Source: an uncultured Pirellula sp. (GTDB lineage: Bacteria > Planctomycetota > Planctomycetia > Pirellulales > Pirellulaceae). From it: a stretch of 46,458 bases of DNA. The DNA is taken from the NCBI GenBank assembly GCA_903892355.1, contig CAITIE010000036.1, positions 1 through 46,458 of the forward strand, given 5' to 3'. Below the pieces are notes generated by a model, which was given only the letters and a program-made list of their open reading frames with translations, searched no databases and had not been told where the DNA came from. The position numbers were made by a program, and so were the translations under genes. Below are positions 2,820 to 36,960 of this stretch, one piece after another (the first letter of the stretch is position 1; each line of letters begins with the position of its first letter).

Positions 2820-3812
2820 TTACGTTCGCCACACGCATCCGGCCCAGGACCAGCCGACACCAAACCCGACGAGCAAATGGGTGGATCCGGGGCAGACTTT
2901 CCCCTCACGCCGCAGGTCATCGATGAGGATCGGAAGGGTCGACGACACGGTGTTTCCGCGGTCGTAGAGTCGAATCGGGAGACGCTCATCGTCGACTCCG
3001 ACCGCCTTCTGCAGCAACTCGAGCATTTTGCGGGTCGCCTGGTGCATCAACAGCAAGTCAATCTGAGACATATCAACCTTTGCTTTCTCCAGCATGTTTC
3101 GGATCAACTGTGGGATAGCGACCACGGTAAAGTCCATCAGGCTCGGTCCGTCCATGTAGAGTCGGCTCGCCCAGCGTTTGCGTCGTCGAGGCACAATCGC
3201 ATCCTCGGAGCACCGTGCCCCTCCTTGGCTGACGATCAGCGTGTCGGCACCTTTACCGTCGGTGCCAAACTCAAAACCGATCAATCGCGGCGTATCGACC
3301 GCTTCGATCAATGTGGCTGCTGCGGCATCACTAAAAATTGGACGCAACGACCGGTCGTCTTTTTCGATGTACTTACTGTATGTTTCTGCAGTCACCAACA
3401 AAACCCGTTTGGCTTGCCCGCTCGCGATCAGACCTTCAGCGAGGGCCAGCCCGTAGACGAACCCGGAACACCCCAAATTGAAGTCGAGCGCACCGCAGTT
3501 GACTCGAAGTCCCAGCCGATCCTGTATCAAGCAAGCGGTTGTCGGGAGAGGATAATCCGGAGTCTGTGTGCAGAAGAGAAGAAAGTCGATCGACTCGGGC
3601 ACCACCGAATGCTCCGCGAAGAGCTTTTGACAAGCGGCGACACCCAGATCGGCGGCCGTCTCATTCGGGGCCGCCAAATACCGAGTTCTAATCCCAGTTT
3701 TCTCGACCAACTCCGGCACATGCCACTCCGGATGCTCGTCGTTCAGCTGATCGCTGGTCTCGACATGCGACGGGAAGTGAACTGCAATAGGGCCAATCTG
3801 CGCGTGCGGCAC
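2820..3812 (-). CDS. fabH: 3-oxoacyl-ACP synthase III (FabH-like ketosynthase)
   Basis: Thiolase-fold condensing enzyme of 330 residues, the usual FabH length. The catalytic triad is visible: Cys115 in LGCSGFVYGLALAEGL, His257 in LLMHQATRKM and Asn287 in DRGNTVSST. Canonical FabH condenses an acyl-CoA with malonyl-ACP to start fatty acid synthesis. The DGPSLMDF and GFGVGWSWAG segments also match the family. It heads a minus-strand group with mqnA and mqnC, so it could instead be a specialised KAS III-like enzyme; the housekeeping role is not proven by context. The upstream gap faces the PII gene and contains short tandem duplications. Confidence 0.85.
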   Translation of the reverse strand: MPHAQIGPIAVHFPSHVETSDQLNDEHPEWHVPELVEKTGIRTRYLAAPNETAADLGVAACQKLFAEHSVVPESIDFLLFCTQTPDYPLPTTACLIQDRLGLRVNCGALDFNLGCSGFVYGLALAEGLIASGQAKRVLLVTAETYSKYIEKDDRSLRPIFSDAAAATLIEAVDTPRLIGFEFGTDGKGADTLIVSQGGARCSEDAIVPRRRKRWASRLYMDGPSLMDFTVVAIPQLIRNMLEKAKVDMSQIDLLLMHQATRKMLELLQKAVGVDDERLPIRLYDRGNTVSSTLPILIDDLRREGKVCPGSTHLLVGFGVGWSWAGCVWRT

Positions 3813-4379: not shown

Positions 4380-5192
4380 TTACCTGCGGGTGGTAGCGAG
4401 CCGATCCTTTGTGCTCACATTTTGGGCCTGCACACGTTTATTCGCCTCCAATTGGATTCGAGGATCCGCAGAACTAGCTTGTGCAACACCGGACCCGATA
4501 CGGGTTGGGGACGTGCGAACAACCCGTTCGGTAGTGGTCGCCGCGCTGGTCCCACTCATTCCTGAACGGCGTTTGTGCGAGGCATTCGCATCAGGTACAG
4601 GCGTCGGAGCCGCTTGAGCTTTAGGCTTGGCCGGGGTTGGATTCGCATGCTGGACCGAGGAATGCGTCGACTCACCTTCGTGCATAACCTCACCCTCAGA
4701 AACAACCCCCTGATTGCACGAAGCACATCCGCCATGGGAACAACCAGATCCCAGTGAGCAACCGGCCCCCTGCGAGCAACCGGCCCCCTGCGAGCAACCG
4801 GAGGGTTCATAGCGATAGCCCCAAAGATCGCGCAATCGGGAATACCATGGGCGGCAACTACCGCACCCGCCGGTGTAGTCACCAGCCATCCCACACGGAT
4901 CACACGTTGGTGGTTCGCTGATATGTTCGCCCCAATAAACTTCTCCGCAGCCAGAAGTGCATCGAGTCGACGCAGCCCACGAGTGAATCTTTTGTTTCAA
5001 GTGGCCATGGCCATGAAGCAGCGGCTCCAAGCCAACCATTCCGCACTCTCCTTCGCACACTCCGGTTTGAGTCGCAGAACACGGAGTGACTCGACAACCA
5101 GGAGCACCACAATTCATTTGGACGCTACAGCAACCAACTTGGCATACAATCGCTGCAACGAGACCAATGCTCCAACGTAGAGACGCTTCCAT
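4380..5192 (-). CDS. Cysteine-rich secreted protein with GCSQGA repeats, unknown function
   Basis: A 270-residue protein with a likely signal peptide (MEASLRWSIGLVAAIVCQVGCC). The Cys-rich start could be a lipoprotein site, although the residue at -3 is Gln, so this is uncertain. The middle is full of Cys-Gly pairs and carries three GCSQGA/GCSLGS-type hexapeptides encoded by an 18-bp DNA repeat. The C-terminal third is low complexity and rich in Pro, Ala, Ser and Thr. The ATG at 5192 is preceded by a G-rich run and four A residues, which fits a ribosome site; a frame from 5324 would add 44 residues that bury the signal peptide. It converges on PII with only seven bases between stops. Metal binding or an envelope role is possible but not shown. 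Confidence 0.65.
   Translation of the reverse strand: MEASLRWSIGLVAAIVCQVGCCSVQMNCGAPGCRVTPCSATQTGVCEGECGMVGLEPLLHGHGHLKQKIHSWAASTRCTSGCGEVYWGEHISEPPTCDPCGMAGDYTGGCGSCRPWYSRLRDLWGYRYEPSGCSQGAGCSQGAGCSLGSGCSHGGCASCNQGVVSEGEVMHEGESTHSSVQHANPTPAKPKAQAAPTPVPDANASHKRRSGMSGTSAATTTERVVRTSPTRIGSGVAQASSADPRIQLEANKRVQAQNVSTKDRLATTRR
4756..4801. repeat. 18-bp tandem repeat within the Cys-rich gene
   Basis: The unit gagcaaccggccccctgc occurs at 4756-4773 and 4774-4791, followed by ten bases of a third copy. It is in frame and encodes the GCSQGA hexapeptide on the minus strand. Confidence 0.9.
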
Positions 5193-5427
5193 TTTTCCCC
5201 CCCGAGAAACTGAAACTTCCATGAGCGAGCCAGCCATACCCGCTGGAACTCGATAAATTAAGAGCGCCGATCCTGAATCCCATCGCTCAACCGGTTGAAA
5301 CTCAACGCGAGCATTTGGATCCACAGCTTGATTCGGTACTGGCTCGTGGATGTTATCGACCGGAACAACCGATACAATCAGTAAATCTTGCCAGGTACAC
5401 CCTCGATGGAATTGCTAGCGAAACCAA

Positions 5428-7666: not shown

Positions 7667-8638
7667 CTACTGACCAAAGAAAACTTTTTCGGCAGTGCCC
7701 GACAGGATCAGCTTCTTTTCATTCATGTTCAGAAAATCCGCTCGGTCGCGAAGAAGCTCCACCGAGGCACCGTAGGTATGAGGCGCGTCGACTTGATACG
7801 GGCAGTCCGAGGCCCACATTAGTCGCTCTGCACCATATGCATCCTTGAGCCTCCGAATCATTGGCAACAGATCGGCATACGGTGCTTTCTTTGCACCCAG
7901 CGCATAGAATGCGGAGGTCTTTACATAAACCTTAGAATATTTTGCCAGCCGACACAAAGCATTCAATTCATCTTCTTGAACGGTACCCCGCATTCCGATC
8001 CGCGAGAAGTGATCGATGACCACGGTCGTCTTCGGATACCGCTCGCAAAGCTTTTCGATTCCCGGAATTGCATCGGGATCCGAAAGCATGCACATGGCTT
8101 GCCCCGTCTCAGCACCGTGTTCAAACATGGTATGGATTCCCTTCGAGGTTTGCCATTGCATCACGTTGGCCCGGTTTGCATAAAGACGGTATCCACGAAC
8201 GCCTCGCTTTCGCAGATCGGTCATGGTCCCTTTCACATCGCTCTTATCATGATCAATGACGGCAACACCCGAAAAGATCCCCGGGAACTTTTCGATGCAA
8301 TCCAGCATGTACGTGTTGTCGAATCCGAAAAAATTCATCTGGATTAAAACAATGCGTGCCACTTGGAGCGGCCGGCAATGGCTGAACAGTTCGTCCGGTG
8401 TGAACGACGCAGGCACAACATCTTTTTCGCTGAACTCCGACGCGAGTGGGTACAGCGTCCCAAACTTTGGCCAAACGTGAACGTGAGCATCGATGATCGA
8501 GTCCGACGCAGGTACTGGCGCGGCGGGATCTACGGTTGAAGGGTTCCCGAAAAGATTTGCGGGGCGAGCGACAACCGCAGATGCAAGTGCCAGCCAATGC
8601 CGTCGAGTGATCGAAAGGTAATCATGATTCTTCTTCAT
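7667..8638 (-). CDS. Tat-type exported amidohydrolase-family protein (TIM barrel)
   Basis: A 323-residue amidohydrolase-2-type metal-dependent hydrolase. The N-terminus TRRHWLALASAVVA resembles a twin-arginine export signal, so the enzyme probably works outside the cytoplasm. Metal and active-site motifs are DAHVHVW near residue 50 (HxH), VIDHFSRIG at mid-length and MWASDCPY near the C-terminus. Family members hydrolyse or decarboxylate small cyclic or aromatic acids and lactones; the substrate here cannot be read from sequence. Its start overlaps the M20 gene stop by four bases (ATGA), so it is the last gene of the five-gene polyketide operon. A lactone or ester of the polyketide product is one conceivable substrate, but this is inference. 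Confidence 0.82.
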   Translation of the reverse strand: MKKNHDYLSITRRHWLALASAVVARPANLFGNPSTVDPAAPVPASDSIIDAHVHVWPKFGTLYPLASEFSEKDVVPASFTPDELFSHCRPLQVARIVLIQMNFFGFDNTYMLDCIEKFPGIFSGVAVIDHDKSDVKGTMTDLRKRGVRGYRLYANRANVMQWQTSKGIHTMFEHGAETGQAMCMLSDPDAIPGIEKLCERYPKTTVVIDHFSRIGMRGTVQEDELNALCRLAKYSKVYVKTSAFYALGAKKAPYADLLPMIRRLKDAYGAERLMWASDCPYQVDAPHTYGASVELLRDRADFLNMNEKKLILSGTAEKVFFGQ

Positions 8639-9771
8639 TTGCCAAACTCCCTGATGAGTGCGTAGTAAAACTGCTCCGCGCGCAGGACCTGCTCGATCTC
8701 TACGTATTCAACCGCGGCATGGGCTTGATCGATACTCCCCGGTCCAAACAGAATGCTGTCGACACCGGCGAGCATTAGTTTGCTCGCATCGCTTCCAAAT
8801 GCAACTCCGGATGGCTCAGGATTCTCACCCAACTGCTTGAGAACTCGACCAGCGGTCTGAACGATCGTAGCATCAGGTGAAGTATCCAGTCCGCGATCGA
8901 TGAGCATGGGAGATTCCATCTCAAACCGCGCCTCTGGTACCGCAGATGCGACACGATCGATAATACGTTGGTAACTCGCTAGCACTTCGTCAACATTTTC
9001 ATACGGCAGCAGGCGACGATCGATCTCGATCGCACATTGATCAGGCACAAAGTTGACTTGAACCCCTCCTGAAATCATGCCGACGTTGGCTGTCGAAGGC
9101 CCCAAAAGTGGGTGCGAGAGCCGATCGAGGTGCGCGTGCTCATTTTCGATCGCGACTAGCAACTTGGCCATGGGATGGATCGCATTGAAGCCGAGATGGA
9201 CCTTGGAACTGTGGGCGGATCGACCACGGGAGACGATCCGCCATCGCAGCACACCTTTGCTTGCGATAACCAGCCTCATCTCGGTCGGTTCAGCAACAAC
9301 CGCTGCGGTTGCGGTAAGCCCTTGGCAAAGTCGCAGCACACCTTGGCATGAGAATTCCTCATCGACCACAGCGGCCATCCATATCTCAGCCGGCGGCGGT
9401 ATTGGATCGCGGAAAGCGTGTACCGCAGCACACATCATGGAGGCTAGTCCTGCTTTGGTATCGCAAGCGCCTCTCCCATACATGCAACCGTCAACTATTT
9501 TGGAATCGAAAGGGTCAATGGTCATCCCTTCCACGGAAACGGTATCCATGTGGGCCTCGAGGACCAGTCGCTTCGACGCATCCTGCCCGGGGATGCGAGC
9601 GATCACATTGTCGCGTCCGGGTAGCACGTTCTGACGCCAACACTCTATCCCGTGCGATCTCCAAAACTGTTCGATGCGATCCGCGCACTGAGCCTCTCCG
9701 GGCCCTCCAGGATAGAACGCATTCACGCTGTTGATTCGAACCAACTGATCGAGAAGGTCGACGGAGTTCAT
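8635..9771 (-). CDS. M20-family metallohydrolase (ArgE/DapE/carboxypeptidase-like)
   Basis: A 378-residue zinc-dependent hydrolase with the two-domain M20 layout. Metal and catalytic residues are visible in EAHMDTV, GRGACDTKAG, DEEFS, AEPTEM and, near the C-terminus, SIDQAHAAVEY. Members deacylate amino acids or cleave peptides; ArgE, DapE and carboxypeptidase-type enzymes all share these motifs and I cannot choose among them. The ATG at 9771 lies one base after the stop of the PKS gene; a TTG at 9780 would overlap the PKS by eight bases. Its stop overlaps the amidohydrolase start as ATGA. This placement ties it to the PKS operon, where it might process an amino-acid conjugate. No signal peptide is seen. 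Confidence 0.85.
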   Translation of the reverse strand: MNSVDLLDQLVRINSVNAFYPGGPGEAQCADRIEQFWRSHGIECWRQNVLPGRDNVIARIPGQDASKRLVLEAHMDTVSVEGMTIDPFDSKIVDGCMYGRGACDTKAGLASMMCAAVHAFRDPIPPPAEIWMAAVVDEEFSCQGVLRLCQGLTATAAVVAEPTEMRLVIASKGVLRWRIVSRGRSAHSSKVHLGFNAIHPMAKLLVAIENEHAHLDRLSHPLLGPSTANVGMISGGVQVNFVPDQCAIEIDRRLLPYENVDEVLASYQRIIDRVASAVPEARFEMESPMLIDRGLDTSPDATIVQTAGRVLKQLGENPEPSGVAFGSDASKLMLAGVDSILFGPGSIDQAHAAVEYVEIEQVLRAEQFYYALIREFGK

Positions 9772-9772
9772 A

Positions 9773-10957
9773 TCATGCAATTCGGCGCAATAAGAGGGCT
9801 TCGGTGTGCAATCCGGGGCCGAAACCGATCATCACTGAGTATTCACCAGGATCGGTTTCGGCCACGAGTTTCTCCAGAATGAACAGTACGGTAGGGGAAG
9901 ACATGTTCCCATAATGGGCCAATACATTTCGAGATGGTTCGATCTGTTTTTCAGAGAGGCCCAAGCATGTCGCTACGGAATCCAAAATCCGAGGCCCACC
10001 TGGATGAACTGCCCAGGTCTGAACCGAGTCGATGTCGACATGGCTTTCCGAAAGCCAACGAGTGATTGGCCCTCGCAACCGCTCTTCGATGATCTTTGGA
10101 ACCCGCGGAGAAAGAGTCATCTGAAAACCATGATCGCCAATCTTCCAACTCATCATGTCCCCGGTCTCTTCTAGCTTGTACGAAAAGCTTGAAACAATTT
10201 CCCACGGTGCAGTAACACCGGACCCGGTGGTTGGGTCGGCAAAGCTCGACTCGGCGCATTCGGCGGCGAGAATCACGCATGCAGCTCCATCGGAGAACAG
10301 AGAGTTGGCAACGATTTGCTCACTGTCATCGCAATACTGCTGATGGATGCTGCACAGTTCCACAGCCCCCACCATCGCGATGGCATCGGGGTGCGAGCGC
10401 ACGACAGCCTCAGCCACACGCAATCCGTTGATCATGCCATGACACCCCATAAACCCAACATGAGTTCGTTGAGTATGCATAGGCAAACCGAGCCTATCGA
10501 TCAAATGATGATCGATACCCGGAGCGCAGAATCCAGTACAAGAAACAGTGATCAGGTGGGTTATCGACGAAGCGTGTAGCCGTGATTGGCTCAACGCTTC
10601 TTTGGCGGCACGCTCAAGCAATGGACCTGCATGCTGGCTGTAGGCTTGCATTCGCTCTGCCGTTGTTGGTCCGTAAGGTCGCTCGGCCGAAGCGACTTGA
10701 TAGAAGCTCTGGCGACTGAATAAATCTCCTTCACTCGGGTCCAGCAGTACACTTGAACGCCGCAGAACTCCCGATTTGCGATACAAAGTCGGGAGCAGTT
10801 TGTGCCAACGCTCAGTGATGTTCAATTGCTGAGCCAAGATCGCCGATTCGTCTTGTGCGACCGTCCCTTCGGGGATCGCTGTCGCCGTGGCGAGGAATCT
10901 CGCCACGGCTCCATATTGCGTCTCGCGCAGCGTGTTTTCCTTGAGTGGTACTGTCAT
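9773..10957 (-). CDS. Type III polyketide synthase (chalcone/stilbene synthase family)
   Basis: A 394-residue homodimeric ketosynthase that extends an acyl-CoA starter with malonyl-CoA and cyclises the product to a resorcinol, pyrone or similar ring. The triad is Cys172 (GFMGCHGMINGLRVA), His318 (WAVHPGGPRILD) and Asn351 (YGNMSSPTV). The C-terminal GFGPGLHTEALLL loop is typical. The ATG at 10957 overlaps the TGA of the flavoprotein gene as ATGA; a farther start at 11002 would add 15 residues inside that gene. Bacterial relatives often make long-chain alkylresorcinols or alkylpyrones, and the neighbouring methyltransferases and flavoprotein resemble tailoring sets for such lipids. Starter and ring type are not readable from sequence. 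Confidence 0.93.
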   Translation of the reverse strand: MTVPLKENTLRETQYGAVARFLATATAIPEGTVAQDESAILAQQLNITERWHKLLPTLYRKSGVLRRSSVLLDPSEGDLFSRQSFYQVASAERPYGPTTAERMQAYSQHAGPLLERAAKEALSQSRLHASSITHLITVSCTGFCAPGIDHHLIDRLGLPMHTQRTHVGFMGCHGMINGLRVAEAVVRSHPDAIAMVGAVELCSIHQQYCDDSEQIVANSLFSDGAACVILAAECAESSFADPTTGSGVTAPWEIVSSFSYKLEETGDMMSWKIGDHGFQMTLSPRVPKIIEERLRGPITRWLSESHVDIDSVQTWAVHPGGPRILDSVATCLGLSEKQIEPSRNVLAHYGNMSSPTVLFILEKLVAETDPGEYSVMIGFGPGLHTEALLLRRIA

Positions 10958-12312
10958 TGCGTTGCCTTGCGAACAATCCAATTTCGAATTGGAGGAAACC
11001 AATCACAAACACGAAGCACCCATTGGGCACGACGCGGCATGCGGGCCTGCTTGGCGACCCAACGACATACCGATTGCGAAAAACGACGTTGCTGGATCGC
11101 CCATTGATTCCACTTGGACGATGAATCCTCGTACGAATTACATCGTATCGCCTCAGCGATCAATGGAACCACAGCAAACCCACTGGCCAACGCCCAGGAC
11201 ATGCCTTCCCCGGTAAAGGGTTCAATATACCCGATCGAGTCCCCCACCAAAAAAACGCGAGGTACAGCCACAGGATCAGAGGCACGCGTCAGGTGGGGAG
11301 TGGTCATCCAGGGCTTGGTGTGCCACACGGAATCGGGGCGATAACCACAGTAGTCGATGATCGAGTCGATCGTGGCCGGGATCGAATTCTTTCCATGCAC
11401 CGCCTCCGGATCCAACGCAGCCGCGATGTCGTAATAGCCACCATCGGTTTTGCACAGACCTACATAACCGTTCGGGGCCACCAGCATATGGAGCGACTGT
11501 TGGTCTAGAAACATCGGACTTTGGGTCAAAAAACTGTCCTCGCTCAGTTCCGACTCATGCAGCATGCACTGAACCCCAATGCGAGATCCTTGGGCGACGG
11601 AGGAACTCCATTGGAGGGTCCCCCCCAGCGGCGATCGATTCAGCCCCGAGGCGACTACTGCGACTTTGGCAACCAATCGTCTCGAGGACGAGCGCTGCCC
11701 ACCCACGGCAGGTCGAATTTGAACCTCGACACTCCCCTGCTCGAGTTGCGAGCGAAAACCGTTACCAACACGTGCATCATCCGTTGCACTAGGTTTCGCC
11801 GAATAGGAATCACGCGACGTTAAATCACGCGACGGCAACGGGAGCAATCCCACCGTCTCAGGCAGAAATTGAACTCCCGACTCGATTGCCTTTTGAACCA
11901 AAATCGAATCGACGGTGGAGCGGCGAACGCTCCACAAGTTCGGGATAGGCCAACAGTGCGGAGCTCGCCCAAACTGCACATGAAGCTGCCTGAGTACTAC
12001 GGACCCTTGACGCTGCAATTCGTCTGCAACCCCCAGACGCTTCAAATAATCAATCGCTCGCGGATTCAAGCAACCACCACACACTTTCTCGCGCGGAAAT
12101 CGCTTAGCTTCGATCAACAGCACTCGCAATCCTTCTCGCGCCGCCAAGATCGCCGTTGTCGAACCTGCGATACCAGCACCAACGACGATGAGATCCCAGG
12201 CCACCCGCTCCGCGTCGGCCGCCGTAATCGTTGCGGCAACCTCACGGGCTCCGATGAGAACTTCATCTCCCGGAGAAATCATTTTCGAATCGGTGGACAG
12301 TTGAGACGCCAT
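10954..12312 (-). CDS. FAD-dependent oxidoreductase, geranylgeranyl-reductase family
   Basis: A 452-residue flavoprotein. The Rossmann FAD motif is DLIVVGAGIAGSTTA at about residue 40, followed by PREKVCGGCLNPRA, the family hallmark of geranylgeranyl reductase-like and related flavoprotein hydroxylases. The second FAD motif is FLVGDSIGYIEPFTGEGM. Such enzymes reduce prenyl double bonds or hydroxylate aromatic and lipid substrates. Its start at 12312 gives a TAATG junction with the methyltransferase upstream; its stop overlaps the PKS start as ATGA. This coupling suggests it hydroxylates or oxidises the PKS product, as flavoproteins do in Streptomyces phenolic-lipid (srs-type) operons. No signal peptide or membrane helix is evident. 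Confidence 0.87.
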   Translation of the reverse strand: MASQLSTDSKMISPGDEVLIGAREVAATITAADAERVAWDLIVVGAGIAGSTTAILAAREGLRVLLIEAKRFPREKVCGGCLNPRAIDYLKRLGVADELQRQGSVVLRQLHVQFGRAPHCWPIPNLWSVRRSTVDSILVQKAIESGVQFLPETVGLLPLPSRDLTSRDSYSAKPSATDDARVGNGFRSQLEQGSVEVQIRPAVGGQRSSSRRLVAKVAVVASGLNRSPLGGTLQWSSSVAQGSRIGVQCMLHESELSEDSFLTQSPMFLDQQSLHMLVAPNGYVGLCKTDGGYYDIAAALDPEAVHGKNSIPATIDSIIDYCGYRPDSVWHTKPWMTTPHLTRASDPVAVPRVFLVGDSIGYIEPFTGEGMSWALASGFAVVPLIAEAIRCNSYEDSSSKWNQWAIQQRRFSQSVCRWVAKQARMPRRAQWVLRVCDWFPPIRNWIVRKATQ

Positions 12313-13139
12313 TACGAAGCACGCTCCCAACGCATCATAAAACGCTCAGGCCAATGTCGGCGGATCGCGGCATCGCGCATACCAGCCTCTGCAGCCAATG
12401 CCTGGGCTTCGTGGGGAGTCAGCGCGGCTCGAACCGATTGCGGACCATCGAAATGAACAACGCGAGAACGAGACAACAGATGGCATCCTAAATACGCCAG
12501 CCACCAACCCAGCGATGTTCTGCACAGATCATCGACGATTACCGCGCGCCGAGCCAATCGCTTCATGGCACCCAACACCTCGACGGCCGACGCATCGTCA
12601 AAATGGTGCAGAAATAGCGTGCAGTAAACGATATCGAAAGACAAATCCTCATCATGGACAATCACATCCGCGCGGTTGCGGTCCGACTGAGATAGCGACG
12701 AATCCATTCCGTTCAACGACCGACTCTCAATACTCGAATGAGCAGAAATCGATTGAACCGCATCAAATACGTTCATCACTTCAAACCGAACGCTACATCC
12801 GCGATATTCAGCAGACTTTTGCTGAAGTTCTCGTGCATGCTCAATCGCCGTGCAACTCATATCCCATCCGATAACCTCAGCGCTGATGCGCCCTACTAAG
12901 CGCTGCGCAACACCCATCGCGATCTCCCCATTCGCGCATCCCAAATCGAGAATACGGATGGGCTTGTCAGATTCAAAGCGAGAATCGCTTTTGGCAACAC
13001 TCACAATCTCTTGGACCAATTGATCGACGGTCCCTGAGAATGCGTTGATACGGCGCAAACCGCGAAGCGCCTTCGCATGCTCCTGTGGGCACAGGTTGGG
13101 ATCATCCATCAATTCGGGGACGAGCACTCGCTTTTTCAT
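12312..13139 (-). CDS. Class I SAM-dependent methyltransferase, first gene of PKS operon
   Basis: A 275-residue cytoplasmic methyltransferase with a Rossmann core. Motif I is ILDLGCANGEIAMG at about residues 62-75; the acidic post-I position (VIGWDMS) and FDIVYCTLFLHHF (motif II/III) follow. The N-terminus PELMDDPNLCPQEHAKALRGL has no known motif for me. The last third contains a helix-rich SLGWWLAYLGCHLLSRSR stretch that may sit against a membrane or a lipid substrate. Its stop is shared with the flavoprotein start (TAATG). It is the promoter-proximal gene of the five-gene minus operon, facing the YceI operon across about 470 bases. An O- or C-methyltransferase acting on the polyketide is the simplest reading. 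Confidence 0.82.
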   Translation of the reverse strand: MKKRVLVPELMDDPNLCPQEHAKALRGLRRINAFSGTVDQLVQEIVSVAKSDSRFESDKPIRILDLGCANGEIAMGVAQRLVGRISAEVIGWDMSCTAIEHARELQQKSAEYRGCSVRFEVMNVFDAVQSISAHSSIESRSLNGMDSSLSQSDRNRADVIVHDEDLSFDIVYCTLFLHHFDDASAVEVLGAMKRLARRAVIVDDLCRTSLGWWLAYLGCHLLSRSRVVHFDGPQSVRAALTPHEAQALAAEAGMRDAAIRRHWPERFMMRWERAS

Positions 13140-13608
13140 CGATCACTTTCCCTATCGCCCGCACATGCTTCTCTCAAGGCATCCTTCCGCTTCGTCGAAA
13201 GATAGCGATCGGAATCCGAGCACGACTGGGAGAAAAGTGGCCTCGCTTCCAAGCAAAATGCAACACGCTTGAACCGAGTTAAAGCACCCATCAATGTGAC
13301 AAAACGACTTATGGCATCTCGCGATGTGTTAAATACGCACCGCAGACATTCGAAAGTTGTCATTCCTGATATGTTACGACGCCCGATAGTCAACGCGGTA
13401 ACGGTTTGCCCACAAATCCATGCAACCAACCCACTCGCGTTCAGAAGGATTAGATTTCGCGTTGAGGCTGTTTCGTCTAGCAAACGTCGATTCCAACTTG
13501 GTATAGTTTTGAAAACATGCGGCGATTGCAGAGGAACCGATCTATGGATTGCGTTAACCATATTGCGAATTGTACACGCTAGCTCAGGCACTAAGGAGGG
13601 TTTTCGCT
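13140..13608. promoter_or_regulatory. Divergent intergenic region between the two PKS-cluster operons
   Basis: About 470 bases separate the minus-strand methyltransferase start from the plus-strand YceI start, and should hold both promoters. A TATAGT hexamer at 13502-13507 could be a -10 box for the plus operon, but no convincing -35 lies 17 bases upstream. I see no clear operator palindrome and no convincing gene; a 192-codon minus frame here has no recognisable features. Confidence 0.4.
13593..13600 (+). promoter_or_regulatory. Strong Shine-Dalgarno site deciding the YceI start
   Basis: The run AAGGAGGG is one of the few near-perfect ribosome sites in the window. It ends eight bases before a GTG at 13609 and 14 before an ATG at 13615, in the YceI frame. 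Confidence 0.6.
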
Positions 13609-14439
13609 GTGGCAATGGGAAGCTATTTACGGGGAAATTTTTATGCATCATTGCTCTACTCCATGTTGAACATGCATCCGAGTCCATGCCATCGCATCCC
13701 CCATATGCCTGCACATAGAGCCCGCTGCTCGAAACAAAATGCAGTCGTTCATGACGCTTGGATCGGAATGTTTATTGCATGTGCTCTATGGATTTTCACA
13801 CCATCGTTCGCAGAGGCACAGCAAAACACGGCACAGCAAAACACGGCACAGCAAACGCAACCCACAACCAAGCCTGGGGACGTAAACTTAGAGTACAGCC
13901 GCGTATTCATCTTCGTCGATCGAACAACATCTTTGGGGCATGCTCACGGGGTTGAAGGCAAACTCAAATCGGGTCGTTTGGCGATCAACTCGAACGATCC
14001 GGGCAGTTTAGTGTTCGACATGAAGTCATTCATCGCGGACACCGAAACCGCCCGCAAAGTCCTCAACGTCGAGAGCACCATCGATGAAGCGACTCGACGA
14101 AAAGTCAATGAGAACATGTTGGGACCTGAGATCCTCAACGTGAATCGCTATCCCGAAGCCAAATTCGAGAACGTTCGGGTCAATGCAACTGGAAAAACAT
14201 CCAACCGCAAGCTTCCAGAATACATCCTCGAAGGGGATTTTACGTTGCATAAAACAACGCGACACCTACAGATCCGATGCGACCTCGAAGAGAAAGATGG
14301 ATGGCACCACGTCCGTGGTTCATTCAAAATCCTTCAGACCGATTACGGCATCAAGCCATACACCAAGATGCTGGGGGCTGTCGGTATCAAAGACGAGTTG
14401 ATGATCTTAGGAGATATTTGGCTAGCGCCGGCACCATGA
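13609..14439 (+). CDS. YceI-family secreted lipid-binding protein
   Basis: A YceI-like beta-barrel (lipocalin-type) protein of about 276 residues. The domain occupies roughly residues 90-275, with SRVFIFVDRTTSLGHAHGVEG at its start (close to the usual S-x-V-x-F opening) and GDFTLHKTTRHLQI later. Known members bind polyisoprenoid or amphiphilic lipids in the periplasm. A hydrophobic stretch (WIGMFIACALWIFTPSFAEA) ends in a plausible signal cleavage site, so export is likely. The start is uncertain: the strong Shine-Dalgarno favours GTG 13609, but an ATG at 13705 would give a more normal signal peptide. A 15-bp in-frame repeat follows the signal. Its stop overlaps the next methyltransferase as ATGA, linking it to the lipid cluster. 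Confidence 0.85.
   Translation: MAMGSYLRGNFYASLLYSMLNMHPSPCHRIPHMPAHRARCSKQNAVVHDAWIGMFIACALWIFTPSFAEAQQNTAQQNTAQQTQPTTKPGDVNLEYSRVFIFVDRTTSLGHAHGVEGKLKSGRLAINSNDPGSLVFDMKSFIADTETARKVLNVESTIDEATRRKVNENMLGPEILNVNRYPEAKFENVRVNATGKTSNRKLPEYILEGDFTLHKTTRHLQIRCDLEEKDGWHHVRGSFKILQTDYGIKPYTKMLGAVGIKDELMILGDIWLAPAP
13816..13855. repeat. 15-bp in-frame tandem repeat after the YceI signal peptide
   Basis: The unit gcacagcaaaacacg occurs at 13816-13830 and 13831-13845, with ten bases of a third copy. It encodes a short Gln/Asn/Thr/Ala linker (AQQNT repeats) between signal peptide and YceI domain. Confidence 0.88.
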
Positions 14440-15272
14440 TTGAGTTTCCAAACGTACAAAAAGGGGTGATTCGCAATCACTACGATATCACCACGCTCTT
14501 CTACCGGCTCTTCTGGGGACCTCATATCCATCATGGATACTGGGAATCGAATGAAACATCGTCCCGTGCGCAGATCCAGCTGACCGAGCGGTTGGCTCAC
14601 GCTGCTAATATTCAATCTGGAAACCGAGTTTACGACATCGGTTGCGGCATGGGTGGTTCGAGTGTTTGGCTAGCGAAAAACCTACAATGCCGCGTCACGG
14701 GGGTGACACTTAGCCCGGTGCAGCGCGCCTACGCCGATCTCGCAGCCCGCGCCGGCTTTGTACGGCCTCGGCCCGAGTTTCTTCGCGCAGATGCCGAGAA
14801 AGTCGAATTCCCGGCAGGCCAAGCCGACGTGGTTTGGAGCATTGAATGCACCGAACACCTGTTCGACAAACCCGCCTTCTTTCGGAAAGCAGCCGGTTGG
14901 TTAAAACCAGGTGGTCGCTTTGCCCTCTGCGCATGGCTGTCGGGGGAATTACCACTCAACGACCAGCAAACTGAGCAAACCGTTGCCGTCTGCAAAGGAA
15001 TGTTTTGCCCGTCCCTCGGGGCGCAATCCGACTATGTCCGATGGTTCGAGGACGCGGGACTCGAAGTCACGCAAAAGGGGATATGGACTCGCAACGTCGA
15101 GAAGACGTGGGATATTTGCTTGGACCGAGTCAACCGATCCGGTGTCCGGCACTTGGCCAAGATCCTCGGTAAGAATCACACTCTATTTTTAGACCACTTC
15201 CAAGCGATCCTCGATGCTTATAAGTCAGGAGCGATGGAGTACGGATACTTTGTGGCGGAGAAAAAGGATTAA
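14436..15272 (+). CDS. SAM-dependent methyltransferase (tocopherol/CFA-synthase-like)
   Basis: A 278-residue class I methyltransferase. The N-terminal HYDITTLFYRLFWG followed by HIHHGYW is typical of the tocopherol, cyclopropane-fatty-acid and small-lipid methyltransferase group. Motif I is VYDIGCGMGGSSVWLA at about residues 67-82, with ADVVWSIECTEHLF and LKPGGRFALCAW following. The ATG at 14436 overlaps the YceI stop (ATGA), and its own stop shares bases with the next start (TAATG), so all three plus-strand genes are probably translationally coupled. Substrate is inferred to be the phenolic or pyrone lipid made by the divergent operon, though methylation of a quinone ring or another lipid would also fit. 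Confidence 0.86.
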   Translation: MIEFPNVQKGVIRNHYDITTLFYRLFWGPHIHHGYWESNETSSRAQIQLTERLAHAANIQSGNRVYDIGCGMGGSSVWLAKNLQCRVTGVTLSPVQRAYADLAARAGFVRPRPEFLRADAEKVEFPAGQADVVWSIECTEHLFDKPAFFRKAAGWLKPGGRFALCAWLSGELPLNDQQTEQTVAVCKGMFCPSLGAQSDYVRWFEDAGLEVTQKGIWTRNVEKTWDICLDRVNRSGVRHLAKILGKNHTLFLDHFQAILDAYKSGAMEYGYFVAEKKD

Positions 15273-16195
15273 TGAATACGGCTTCTGCAAGGCTGATTCC
15301 CAACGCGATCGATATCGCGATCGACCATGTGCCAAACGCGCCCACCTCCGGAAATCCTGCGAGTGCCCCAAACGTGGCGATCAGGAATGCCGAACATGCC
15401 TCGCTTACGACACCGTTGAGAACAACAACGGCTCCGAAAGCTTCAGCAAGAACTCTGCGGCGAACGGCGGGCATTACCTTTGGTATCGGTACACAGTTGC
15501 TGTTCCTGGTCACCGTGGTCTACTTGTTTTTGTTTTTGAGGTATGGCGGAACATCACTGCGTCAGGGATGGTGGTGGATGGACGCGCTGCTCGCAACGGG
15601 CTTCGCCATCCCTCATAGCGTTTTACTCGCTCCACCCACTCAGAAGTGGTTGCGACAATGGGTTGCCGCTGGGATGCTCGGCTGTATTCACTGCGGCGTG
15701 ACCTGCATCTCTCTCCTGGTCATGTTCCATTACTGGCGAGGAAGCGAGCAAGTCCTATGGAGAGCCTCAGGGATTGCCGAGCAAGCGATCCTGGGTTGCT
15801 TCTATCTTTCCTGGGTCGCCCTCCTATATAGTTTGTACTGGACAGGATTTGGCTACCAAACGGGGCTTACCCAATGGTGGTACTGGTTCACGGAGTCCAA
15901 ACCTCCCCGCCGCCCCTTCGTGACAGGTGGTCCATTTCACTACATGCGGCACCCAGTCTACATGAGCTTTTTGGGACTGATTTGGTTCACGCCCGTGATG
16001 ACATGGGACCACGCGATCCTCACGGCGGTCTGGACAGCCTATATCTACGCCGGCAGTTACTTCAAAGACAAGCGATTGCTGCGATTCATCGGGGAAGAAT
16101 ACTACGAATACGGGACTCGCATTGCAGGACTCCCCTGGATCGGCTTCGGAAGCTTGCGAAAGTTCAAACCTCGCCCGGCAGCAACCGCCTCGTGA
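15272..16195 (+). CDS. Membrane methyltransferase, ICMT/NnrU/MddA-like family
   Basis: A 307-residue protein with about five membrane helices, starting after a 65-residue soluble N-terminus. The C-terminal catalytic part reads YMRHPVYMSFLGLIWFTP, then TAYIYAGSYFKDKRLL and IGEEYYEYGTRIAGLPWIG, the layout of isoprenylcysteine carboxyl methyltransferase-like and MddA (methanethiol methyltransferase) enzymes. The usual acidic pair in the EER position is replaced by KDKR. In Bacillus (bpsB) and Streptomyces (srsB), proteins of this broad family O-methylate type III PKS products, which fits this location. Its start is coupled to the upstream methyltransferase as TAATG. Annotation as NnrU or MddA would be premature. 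Confidence 0.78.
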   Translation: MNTASARLIPNAIDIAIDHVPNAPTSGNPASAPNVAIRNAEHASLTTPLRTTTAPKASARTLRRTAGITFGIGTQLLFLVTVVYLFLFLRYGGTSLRQGWWWMDALLATGFAIPHSVLLAPPTQKWLRQWVAAGMLGCIHCGVTCISLLVMFHYWRGSEQVLWRASGIAEQAILGCFYLSWVALLYSLYWTGFGYQTGLTQWWYWFTESKPPRRPFVTGGPFHYMRHPVYMSFLGLIWFTPVMTWDHAILTAVWTAYIYAGSYFKDKRLLRFIGEEYYEYGTRIAGLPWIGFGSLRKFKPRPAATAS

Positions 16196-29578: not shown

Positions 29579-31492
29579 CTAGTTCTTGACTTCAAACTCG
29601 GCATCGATCGCATCATCGTCACCCGACGACTTGGCGGTTTCCCCACCAGGCACATCTTGAGCCGGCTGACTTGCGAAGTTCGACCGGAACGCTTGGGCTG
29701 CTTGTTCGAGTTCGCTCGTAGCAGCTTTGATCGTATCGGCGTTGTTGGAGCTGATCGCCTCGCGAACCTTTTTCATCGCGGACTCAAGCGGTTCTCGGTC
29801 CGAGGCGCTCAACTTGTCGCCTTGGTCTTTGATCGCTTTTTCGAGACCATGGATCGTATTCTCAGCGCGGTTCTTAGCCTCGGCCAATTCGACTTCTTTC
29901 CGGTCTTCATCGGCATGGACTTCCGCATCGCGCCGCATTCGCTCGATTTCGTCCTTACTCAAACCGCTCGACTGTTCGATCTTGACGCTGGCTTGTTTGC
30001 CAGATTTCAAGTCCTTGGCCGAAACGTTCAAGATACCATTCTGGTCGATGTCGAATTTGACTTCGATCTGCGGCACACCGCGAGGAGCTGAGTCGATCCC
30101 TTCCAAGTTGAACTGACCGAGCAAGCGATTGTGCTGAGCGACTTTACGTTCCCCTTGAAATACGCTCACGGTCACTGCGGTCTGCCCATCGGCGGCCGTC
30201 GAGAAGACTTGCTTCTTTTCGACCGGAATGGTGGTATTACGTTCGATCAGAGCTGTTAGGATTCCGCCTTCGGTTTCGATCCCGAGCGTCAACGGGGTGA
30301 CGTCGAGCAACAGAACGTCTTTGCGCTCACCCGACAGCACGCTTCCCTGGATCGCAGCGCCGACAGCGACGACTTCGTCCGGGTTGACCCCTTGGTGAGG
30401 CTCTTTGCCAAAGATGTCCTTGACGATTTGACGAACCTTAGGAACCCGCGTGGAACCGCCGACCAAAACGACTTCGTCGATCTCCGATGGATTCAACTTG
30501 GCATCTTTCAACGCCTGGAGCACCGGCTGACGGCATCGCTCGATCAAGGAATCGATCAATCCCTCGAAGGTGCTGCGAGTCACGGCCATTTGCAAGTGCT
30601 TTGGACCGGTAGCATCGGCCGTGATGAACGGAAGGTTAATGTCGGTTTGCGGTAGCGAACTTAGCTCCTTCTTGGCCTTTTCACAAGCTTCTTGAAGCCG
30701 CTGGAGCGACATGGGATCCTTGCGAAGATCGATACCGTTGTCCTTCTGGAACTGATTCGCGACGTGATTCACGAGTGCTTGGTCAAAATCGTCACCACCG
30801 AGGTGCGTGTCACCGCTGGTGCTGATCACTTCAAAGACCTTGCTGCTGGAATCTTCATCGCCGCTCAATGCGACTTCGAGAACCGACACGTCGAACGTAC
30901 CACCACCCAAGTCGAACACGACGATCTTTTGATCCTTTTTCTTATCCAAGCCGTATGCCAATGCGGCTGCAGTCGGCTCGTTGATGATCCGAGCTACTTC
31001 GAGGCCTGCAATTTGGCCGGCGTCCTTGGTCGCTTGACGCTGGGCGTCGTTAAAGTAGGCGGGAACCGTGATCACCGCCTTGGAGACGCGGTGCCCGAGA
31101 TACGCTTCGGCCGCTTCCTTCAACTTGCGAAGCACCTTGGCCGAAATCTCTTGCGGAGTGAATTGCTGATCACCGATCTGCACCTTCACGTACTCATTCG
31201 CACCTCCGACGACTTGATAAGGGACAATCTTCTCTTCGGATTCGACTTCCGAATGGCGACGTCCCATGAATCGCTTGACCGAGTACACCGTGCGTCGCGG
31301 GTTGGTCACCGCTTGACGACGGGCTGGCTCGCCCACAATGGTTTCGCTCTTATCGGTAAAAGCGACCACACTCGGGGTCAGTCGGTTGCCTTCCGCATTC
31401 GGAATCACCTTGACTTCCGAACCTTCCATCACCGCAACTACTGAGTTGGTAGTTCCAAGGTCGATACCGATGATTTTTTCGCCTGCTGCCAT
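29579..31492 (-). CDS. dnaK: Molecular chaperone DnaK (Hsp70)
   Basis: A 637-residue Hsp70. The ATPase domain opens with [15 protein letters not shown] and holds [15 protein letters not shown] and [17 protein letters not shown]; the substrate-binding domain includes [14 protein letters not shown]. The lid and a C-terminal EFEVKN end are intact. It refolds and protects proteins with DnaJ and GrpE, neither of which is next to it. A GGAGA ribosome site lies shortly before the ATG. I looked for a CIRCE operator in the 253 bases upstream and do not see one. Confidence 0.98.
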
Positions 31493-35181: not shown

Positions 35182-36960
35182 ATGACGGCTAGTTATTGCA
35201 TTGGGATCGATTTAGGAACGACGAACTCGGTTTTGGCATTCGCTCCGATGGAGGACGCGGAAGCTATGATTGCAGTACTTCCCATCCCGCAATTGGTAGC
35301 CCCCGGTTCCGTCGAGAACCGACTTAGTTTGCCATCGTTCCTATTCATCCCCCAAGCCATGGATCCATCGCTGGAGGTTCCTGGGATAGGGACAGGCACA
35401 TGGGTGATTGGTGAATACGCTCGGCGCATCTCCGCGGAGCAGCCTGAGCGCGTGGTTGCGGCCGCGAAAAGTTGGTTGTGCAACACCCAAGTCGACCGGC
35501 AATCTCCGATCCTGCCGTGGCAATCGGATGCACCGATCGAACTGGTTTCTCCCATCACAGCAAGTGCCGCATTCTTGAGCTACTTAATCGATGCTTGGAC
35601 GAATCGCTTTCCCGATGCCCCTTTTGCACAGCAAAAGGTGGTTCTTACGGTTCCGGCATCCTTCGACGAAGCGGCCCGTGAGTTGACTCGGCAAGCCGCA
35701 TTATCGGTCGGTTTCCCTGAAGATTTCGTGTTTTTGGAGGAGCCTCAAGCCGCCCTGTACAACTGGGTCCACGCTCGCGGTGATCATTGGCGCAAGGAAC
35801 TTCAACGGGGAGATCTGCTCTTGGTGTGCGATGTCGGTGGCGGAACTACCGACCTAACATTGGTCAGCGTCGACGAAAACCACGGTGGGCTATCTCTCAA
35901 CCGACTGGCCGTAGGCAATCACTTGCTCGTGGGTGGCGACAACATGGATTTGGCCCTCGCGCATGTCGCTGGTGAATTGTTCAAGCAAAAGGGTGCAAAA
36001 CTGAACGCGTGGCAGTCACTGTCCCTATGGCATTCCTGCCGAACCGCGAAAGAGAAACTATTAGGCCGTTCTGCACCCGAATCCTACCCTCTTACGTTGC
36101 TCGGTCGGGGTAGCAAACTCATTGGTGGTACCATCTCCACACAACTCGACCGCAGGATCGTCGAGGAGACCCTGGTCGATGGTTTTTTCCCCATTGTTCC
36201 TGGAGACTCTCGCCCGATCGATGACGCAGAAAGTGGGTTCCAAGAAATTGGGCTTCCCTTCGCATCCGATTCGGCAATCACCCGTCACATCGCCGGCTTC
36301 CTTCAAGACCACGCTGAAGATGTCGGCGGCGAATCCGGGCGAGGCCGACTGACTCACTTACTGTTCAACGGTGGTGTTTTCAACGCGGACGCATTCCGCA
36401 AGCGAATGTCGGATACATTAGCTGCCTGGAACGATGACCAATCACCGCCGACGATCCTGGGGGGAATCGAGGATCTCGATCAAGCAGTCGCGTGTGGTGC
36501 TTGCTACTATGCTTGGGCCATCGAGCACGGAGGGATTCGCATCCGAGGTGGCACCGCGCGGAGTTACTATGTTGGAATTGAGAGTTCCGGTCCGGCTGTT
36601 CCGGGTATGCCCCGACCGCTGCACGCACTTTGTGTCGTTGCCCAAGGCATGGAGGAAGGAACTGAGGTCTCGGTTCCAGGACGCCCCATCGGCATCAAAG
36701 TTGGTCAAAAAGCCAGGTTTCGATTCTTTTCGAGCACAACTCGACGCGAGGACAAACCCGGATCATTGCTCCGAGGATGGGACGAAGGAGAATTGGTCGA
36801 GACATCTCCGATGGAATTAGAACTTCCTAAGGACGGTAGTGAATCGATTGTCCCAGTAAATTTTCTGAGTCGCATCACCGAACTTGGTGTATTCGAGTTA
36901 TCATGCCAAAGCACCCGCAATGAGAACCGTTGGAAGTTAGCTATGAACGTTCGCGAGTAG
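35182..36960 (+). CDS. Hsp70-family ATPase, divergent DnaK-like protein
   Basis: A 592-residue actin-like ATPase. The phosphate-1 loop is [15 protein letters not shown], followed by VVLTVPASFDEAARELT, VCDVGGGTTDLTLV and LLFNGGVFNA, the YegD/HscC-like Hsp70 layout. It lacks the substrate-binding domain and EEVD-like tail of dnaK; the C-terminal 120 residues form a different domain with FRFFSSTTRREDKPGSLLRG. Related proteins often occur in pairs with a DUF3731-containing second Hsp70, which is not present here. The gene is alone; the prolyl oligopeptidase starts 48 bases later. Confidence 0.86.
   Translation: MTASYCIGIDLGTTNSVLAFAPMEDAEAMIAVLPIPQLVAPGSVENRLSLPSFLFIPQAMDPSLEVPGIGTGTWVIGEYARRISAEQPERVVAAAKSWLCNTQVDRQSPILPWQSDAPIELVSPITASAAFLSYLIDAWTNRFPDAPFAQQKVVLTVPASFDEAARELTRQAALSVGFPEDFVFLEEPQAALYNWVHARGDHWRKELQRGDLLLVCDVGGGTTDLTLVSVDENHGGLSLNRLAVGNHLLVGGDNMDLALAHVAGELFKQKGAKLNAWQSLSLWHSCRTAKEKLLGRSAPESYPLTLLGRGSKLIGGTISTQLDRRIVEETLVDGFFPIVPGDSRPIDDAESGFQEIGLPFASDSAITRHIAGFLQDHAEDVGGESGRGRLTHLLFNGGVFNADAFRKRMSDTLAAWNDDQSPPTILGGIEDLDQAVACGACYYAWAIEHGGIRIRGGTARSYYVGIESSGPAVPGMPRPLHALCVVAQGMEEGTEVSVPGRPIGIKVGQKARFRFFSSTTRREDKPGSLLRGWDEGELVETSPMELELPKDGSESIVPVNFLSRITELGVFELSCQSTRNENRWKLAMNVRE

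Follow-up and report, generated by a model that had tools for sequence, protein, structure and literature searches.

A cluster built around a type III polyketide synthase (PKS) was found on a 46,458-bp contig from an uncultured Pirellula sp.; this contig, analysed in its entirety and hereafter called the window, is part of a 6.18-Mb draft genome (G000). Eight open reading frames (ORFs) were located within positions 7667-16195 (Table 1). The ORF listing and the Pfam and NCBIfam family matches bore out the protein kinds proposed in an earlier sequence-only reading of the window: a methyltransferase (MT1), a flavoprotein (FAD), the PKS, an M20 hydrolase and an amidohydrolase on the minus strand, and a YceI-family lipocalin, a second methyltransferase (MT2) and an ICMT-like membrane methyltransferase on the plus strand. 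The two arms, which that reading had facing each other, instead diverge back to back, with 430 bp (13140-13569) separating the starts of the longest ORFs. Six of the genes, MT1-FAD-PKS together with YceI-MT2-ICMT, constitute the conserved core.

Table 1 Features of the window in and around the PKS cluster
Feature	Position	Strand	Basis or remark
Amidohydro_2 hydrolase, lineage-specific neighbour, not core	7667..8638	-	PF04909, E 3.9e-30
M20 (ArgE/DapE-like) hydrolase, lineage-specific neighbour, not core	8635..9780	-	TIGR01910, 237.8 bits (cut-off 217.6)
PKS, type III polyketide synthase	9773..10957	-	PF00195/PF02797
FAD, flavoprotein of the geranylgeranyl-reductase/FAD_binding_3 group, HidB position	10954..12312	-	PF01494, E 1.4e-12
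MT1, S-adenosylmethionine (SAM) methyltransferase, HidA position, first gene of minus arm	12312..13139	-	Methyltransf_31, E 1.9e-12
Intergenic region between the divergent arms	13140..13608	.	Block conserved in three-species alignment
YceI-family lipocalin	13609..14439	+	PF04264, 48.4 bits (cut-off 23.7)
MT2, SAM methyltransferase, CMAS/Methyltransf_11 superfamily	14436..15272	+	Pfam match on the longer ORF 14277-15272
ICMT, membrane methyltransferase-like, related to the ICMT/NnrU/MddA group	15272..16195	+	MddA model, PF04140, ICMT structures
Cys/Gly-rich protein	4380-5324	-	Repeats such as GCSQGAGC; no Pfam match
Canonical Hsp70	29579-31492	-	
Divergent HSP70-like protein	35182-36960	+	
Prolyl oligopeptidase	37009-39267	+	

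The six junctions within the arms either overlap or almost touch, so that each arm is probably transcribed as a single unit. ATGA overlaps were found at three junctions (M20/amidohydrolase, FAD/PKS and YceI/MT2) and TAATG at two (MT1/FAD and MT2/ICMT), while the gap between PKS and M20 is 1 bp if M20 starts at ATG 9771. The PKS ORF spans 9773-11002 and opens at a TTG (11002), and the FAD ORF opens at 12330; their likely starts are the ATG codons at 10957, overlapping the FAD stop, and at 12312, overlapping the MT1 stop (TAATG). MT2 likely starts at ATG 14436. The longest YceI ORF covers 13570-14439, and its likely GTG start (13609) lies 9 nt after AAGGAGG (13593-13599). The intergenic region presumably has a promoter role. 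Upstream of the plus arm and over the YceI start, the DNA from approximately 13490 to 13645, which includes AAGGAGG, shows strong conservation among three species and may serve as a regulatory leader.

The PKS retained the triad C187/H333/N366 (409-aa numbering), which matches that of PKS18 in the alignment, and Trp286; these four residues were invariant in all 38 rows of one alignment and all 23 rows of another. Trp286 aligns with the ArsC Gly284 site, which differs between 3vs8 (Gly) and 3vs9 (Trp), and Trp at this site favours resorcinol over pyrone in ArsB/ArsC according to the part of PMC6274091 available. Trp286 thus supports resorcinol-type cyclisation by the window PKS but does not prove it, because Pks11, named for alpha-pyrone synthesis, likewise has Trp at this site in the alignment. 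The order methyltransferase-oxidoreductase-type III PKS on a single strand is that of hidABC-type operons; PKS stands third in the minus arm, not first as in srs and pkq operons. FAD scored 102.1 bits against TIGR02032, below the cut-off of 158.8. A PF00195 match at 3378-3701 was considered as another type III PKS and rejected, since the best score of this gene was that of KAS III.

On the plus arm, the YceI profile matched the E. coli YceI structures 1y0g and 5ixh, and a hydrophobicity scan picked out residues 45-63 of 276 as a hydrophobic segment. The MT2 relatives in a 17-row alignment were 54-97% identical to the window protein, whose motif WGPHIHHGYW we take to resemble tocopherol methyltransferases. 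A specific MT2 substrate read from database names was rejected, as the NCBIfam matches shown fell under their cut-offs and the PDB profile matches were a mixed superfamily. The ICMT-like protein, with two hydrophobic segments in a simple scan, had no Pfam match at E<=0.001 and matched ICMT structures at E 7e-4 in a profile search. MddA function was rejected for it, since its 91.9 bits against the MddA NCBIfam model are below the cut-off of 270. PF04140 was matched by 15 of 18 ICMT-like members at E<=1; at 17.2 bits, under the cut-off of 24, the window protein is by profile a relative of this family and is not filed as a member.

PKS matches at E<=1e-3 were present in 53 of 60 genomes (the window's own included), many of them only weak, at FabH level. 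Neighbourhoods were mapped in 40 stretches around strong PKS matches (the window's and 39 from 37 relatives), and 13 further stretches with YceI or ICMT matches were added. MT1 and YceI were divergent on one contig in 18 of the 27 genus genomes, including the window's (G000, G001, G002, G004, G005, G006, G008, G010-G014, G019, G020, G022, G023, G024 and G026); a gap of ~2.5 kb between the two genes in G006, G012, G022, G024 and G026 holds an MMPL transporter gene. In G021, MT1 and MT2 are divergent without YceI and ICMT, and in G003, G007, G009, G015, G016, G017, G018 and G025 the locus is cut by a contig end, has parts at other sites or lacks matches to some parts. As a flanking control in the 40 stretches, matches to VUT and an ABC permease were confined to the window, G005 and G008, and those to bioA and KDPG aldolase to the window and G005; the flanking ABC ATPase was weakly matched in two more stretches (27-39%). 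G001 also carries a second PKS cluster (L060, G001:C197), the module of which looks decayed, with YceI, an ICMT match containing two stops and no MT2 match.

The sequence-only reading had treated all eight genes as one unit and named synteny of all eight in planctomycete relatives as its test: the six core genes stay linked there, and the hydrolases do not. A single pathway in which M20 and the amidohydrolase process the lipid would accord with both genes overlapping or nearly touching behind PKS, and with the retention of this arrangement in G005 (91-92% identity) and, across a contig break, in G008. In G008, the pair is split between two contigs, one starting in M20 next to PKS and the other stopping in the amidohydrolase next to bioA and KDPG aldolase, so that three species share the hydrolase arrangement of the window. 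However, within the genomes looked at, the pair follows PKS only in these three, and within the 40 stretches only in the window and G005, with an M20 fragment in G008. Elsewhere in the genus it is an independent pair: in 16 of 22 other members searched (G001-G024 minus G005 and G008), the two genes lie no more than 500 bp apart, and none of the 16 carries them on its PKS contig (G018 being without such a PKS). The distance between M20 and amidohydrolase was 3.5 kb in G023 and ~86 kb in G006, and no amidohydrolase match was found in G002, G003, G012 and G016 at E<=1e-30, the threshold at which 27 (amidohydrolase) and 38 (M20) of 40 genomes, own included, had matches. Furthermore, a relative of the prolyl oligopeptidase of the window adjoins M20 in 4 of 8 pair neighbourhoods of the genus. 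The eight-gene unit was rejected because the hydrolases are a separate pair in most other genus members searched, and their participation in lipid processing is considered highly improbable; they are presumably peptide-type hydrolases that joined the transcription unit and act outside the lipid pathway. In the window itself, the prolyl oligopeptidase gene lies ~27 kb from the pair. The amidohydrolase N-terminus TRRHWL is, we assume, Tat-like.

The linkage of the six genes extends well beyond the genus. Scanning the contigs of named genomes (84,980 species) with the MT2 alignment yielded 129 relatives, and the analysis was continued with the best 80 of them; some of these loci are the same contigs as in the G-numbered genomes, and the closest MT2 among the 80 was 97% identical (L086). 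A planctomycete taxon appears in 79 of the 80 locus titles, and the remaining title reads only "bacterium". Profile searches of the 80 loci detected ICMT in 64, YceI in 61, PKS in 50, MT1 in 50, FAD in 47 and MMPL in 38, with all six core genes in 39 and all seven, MMPL included, in 21. For the 39 loci in which MT2 is flanked by 8 kb or more on each side, the counts were PKS 35, FAD 33, MT1 32, ICMT 29 and YceI 28; MT1, FAD and PKS occurred in one locus in 32, all six core genes in 28 and all seven in 14. PKS was not found in four of the 39 (L104, L105, L143 and L163). The 25 of the 39 loci from L106 on, where MT2 identity is at most 61%, included PKS in 23, all six in 17 and all seven in 11; L104 and L105 (MT2 identity 68%) are outside these 25 and, counted as outsiders, bring PKS to 23 of 27. 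L105 is taken to be the contig of G357 (another genus of the same family), the PKS of which is on another contig. In L104, L105 and L163, no other cluster gene was seen beside the MT2 relative within a view of ~20 kb. L158, titled Rhodopirellula baltica, holds the same six genes and MMPL. The PKS-adjoining methyltransferase of L159 (Stieleria sedimenti), L157 and L165 is MT2 by profile, with no MT1 seen in the locus. By this pattern, the operon of two genes reported for S. maiorica, a species with an existing PKS deletion (PMC10896814), may be a reduced form that has kept MT2.

Co-occurrence was then counted genome by genome. In an order-level sample of 148 genomes (at least 95% complete; MT2 threshold E<=1e-60), MT2 was present in 35, PKS in 80 and both in 34, the exception being G050. 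Weak matches in this sample were those of MT2 in G388 and G403 and of PKS in G323. By the positions listed, MT2 lay within 10 kb of PKS in 18 of the 35. In a phylum-level sample of 244 genomes, which shares genomes with the former, MT2 was found in 10, PKS in 99 (many at ~200 bits) and both in 10, within 5 kb of each other in 9. MT2 therefore nearly implies PKS, and YceI-MT2-ICMT is an accessory module of this PKS family, because 46 of the 80 PKS genomes of the order sample are without MT2 at the threshold. Score thresholds were our choice, and scored first-look candidates per genome were at most 10-16 (MT2) or 8-13 (PKS), so misses are possible.

Gene order was followed on a quickly built PKS tree with 49 rows, in which 13 of the 46 inner branches were drawn open. 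Four duplicate rows, loci missing one or more of YceI, ICMT, MT2 and PKS, and rows with short PKSs were left out, and only five of the stretches fetched by PKS, YceI or ICMT matches before the MT2 scan were retained. The 47 rows with all six genes fell into five orders (MMPL ignored), requiring at least 8 order changes. This count reflects repeated reordering of linked sets and not the rate at which linkage is lost, because the rows were chosen for having the genes together. In four rows (L117, L132, L037 and L175), the module encloses the PKS operon, and a single strand reads YceI-MT1-FAD-PKS-MT2-ICMT.

With YceI, MT2 and ICMT linked to the PKS operon elsewhere too, the earlier suggestion of a lipid cluster around a type III PKS gained support, the product being probably a methylated alkylresorcinol or a quinone, and we consider it fairly probable that the six genes form a phenolic-lipid pathway with its own envelope carrier. 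From the observed gene content, families, intact PKS triad, linkage and co-occurrence, we infer a possible order of steps, cargo and function as follows. PKS would extend a long-chain acyl starter with three malonyl-CoA and close a 5-alkylresorcinol, the ring of which the flavoprotein may hydroxylate. MT1 and MT2 would methylate the ring product from the cytosolic side, and the membrane-embedded ICMT-like enzyme would add the last methyl at the inner membrane. The YceI lipocalin could then grip the alkyl tail of a multiply methylated alkyl-hydroquinone/quinone (or methoxy-resorcinol) and carry it through the periplasm. Lipids that have been detected with YceI lipocalins are ubiquinone-8, octaprenylphenol and octaprenyl phosphates, and tocopherol and menaquinone are ligands of BcnA with low Ki (excerpts of PMC9113575 and PMC5350466); given such ligands, a phenolic or quinone lipid would be a fitting YceI cargo. 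The physiological ligand of the family is described as uncertain in the portion of PMC5350466 at hand.

Several points, besides the tryptophan of Pks11 and the many PKS genomes without MT2, weigh against this six-gene pathway. The 80 loci were chosen by MT2 and are the best 80 of 129 only, and the Fisher P values for co-occurrence (4.7e-10 in the order sample, 9.1e-5 in the phylum sample) ignore relatedness. Some matches counted are weak (PKS in G323 at 213 bits; MT2 in G388, G403 and G214 at 208-224 bits). L104, L105, L157, L159, L163 and L165 have MT2 but neither YceI nor ICMT, so the carrier is not always present. In the available sections of PMC10896814, expression of the two extra 'S. ferox' methyltransferases in C. 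glutamicum yielded no additional product (Table 3 therein), and oxidation to alkylquinones was not seen. Moreover, the draft genome G050 has YceI-MT2-ICMT without a PKS of this family. By eye, the G050 module (L073, G050:C100) adjoins ORFs resembling a BlaI/M56 pair and an ABC/efflux operon.

On a rival reading, the substrate of YceI-MT2-ICMT is a different lipid, such as an isoprenoid quinone or a precursor of one, and the link to the PKS operon reflects shared regulation only; the module without PKS in G050 speaks for it. YceI proteins are known for isoprenoid ligands (PMC9113575, in the part available), and 16 of the 34 genomes of the order sample with both MT2 and PKS, many of these drafts, have the two genes on separate contigs or at a great distance; such a distance was seen in the single-contig genomes G384 and G388 and along one long contig in G336. 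In contrast, PKS is present in 34 of 35 MT2 genomes, the PKS operon is nested inside the module in the four tree rows above, and MT2 stands beside PKS with neither YceI nor ICMT seen in L157, L159 and L165. We regard an action on another lipid as unlikely.

A further gene often accompanies the core. ORF clustering of 97 loci revealed a ~780-aa family beside it, identified as MMPL/RND, and the other ORF families near the core were taken, by size and position, for shadow ORFs in other frames. The profile count (38 of 80) was preferred to the 41-locus ORF cluster of MMPL, which takes in a handful of short ORFs that overlap ICMT. Since 59 of 60 genomes, own included, have MMPL homologs somewhere (E<=1e-40), only the position of the gene is informative. 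The window cluster has no adjoining MMPL, and membership of the window's own cluster was rejected, the best match in the genome being on contig C90. In many relatives, the MMPL/RND transporter may extract the lipid from the inner membrane. An exporter alongside YceI would also suit a hierridin-like secreted signal or allelochemical in place of an envelope lipid: MMPL is linked in 38 of the 80 best of 129 named loci, and the MT1-FAD-PKS order equals hidABC as described in the available text of PMC10896814. A dedicated lipocalin alone, however, does not imply release, and we hold this alternative to be doubtful, if somewhat less so than an action on another lipid.

Within the six-gene pathway, the product perhaps serves as a redox lipid. 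More tentatively, it may be a multiply methylated polyketide benzoquinone that mimics ubiquinone and is carried out of the inner membrane by YceI (with MMPL/RND in many relatives), a diffusible redox carrier or antioxidant of the periplasm or outer membrane whose biosynthesis and shuttle are encoded together. This possibility, to which we give limited credence, draws on the polyketide quinones reported as electron carriers of actinobacteria (PMC9927152, excerpts). The cluster can now be defined independently of gene order, a natural cargo is suggested for a YceI lipocalin, and an envelope or redox role for planctomycete alkylresorcinols becomes testable in genetically tractable planctomycetes.

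Elsewhere in the window, a Cys/Gly-rich protein is encoded, and the canonical Hsp70 gene lies ~4 kb from that of the second, divergent HSP70-like protein (Table 1).

Among known systems, the srs and bps operons proposed by the sequence-only reading are not the nearest precedent, as the MT1-FAD-PKS half was described in 2024 by Milke et al. as a hidABC-like operon for alkylresorcinols in planctomycetes (PMC10896814; this and the other papers compared here were available in part). Common to both are the methyltransferase-oxidoreductase-type III PKS order and the alkylresorcinol core. The PKSs of these three-gene operons or their variants make pentadecyl- and heptadecylresorcinols (C15/C17), and G. 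maris mtr and fdo add one methyl, probably on carbon (PMC10896814). The sections available state that the function of planctomycete alkylresorcinols is unknown, that the fully decorated compound was not obtained from one to three genes in C. glutamicum, and that conservation of the neighbouring genes is limited to close relatives. The unit there is three genes, whereas here YceI-MT2-ICMT, often with MMPL, recur across the families of the order and beyond, and MT2, ICMT, YceI and often MMPL are probably the genes missing from the C. glutamicum reconstitution. The 'S. ferox' operon of the same paper, with a lipoprotein, a lipid/isoprenoid-binding protein, two methyltransferases and a PKS, may represent the same association as YceI-MT2-ICMT-PKS. 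A paper from 2026 (PMC13315336) still presents an operon of three genes.

The cyanobacterial hidABC hierridin cluster is alike in the order and roles of HidA, HidB and HidC (PMC8086630); in the text available, neither YceI nor MMPL occurs, RND transporters are mentioned in other type III PKS clusters, and some hid-like clusters have a second methyltransferase. The Streptomyces srs-like and Mycobacterium pkq operons share a type III PKS, a methyltransferase and an oxidoreductase and make electron-carrier alkylquinones, but they comprise three genes with PKS first, and no linked lipocalin or further methyltransferases are described in the excerpts of PMC9927152. Bacillus bpsAB likewise combines a type III PKS with a second enzyme (a methyltransferase by reference title), but consists of two genes for alkylpyrones, without flavoprotein or carrier in the part of PMC5686519 available. 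BcnA/LcoA also involve a YceI lipocalin proposed to work with a periplasmic redox lipid; the partner there is cytochrome b561 and the proposed lipid ubiquinone-8, and no dedicated lipid pathway is described in the available part of PMC9113575. No prior report of YceI-MT2-ICMT associated with PKS was found among the matches listed from open-licence PMC papers.

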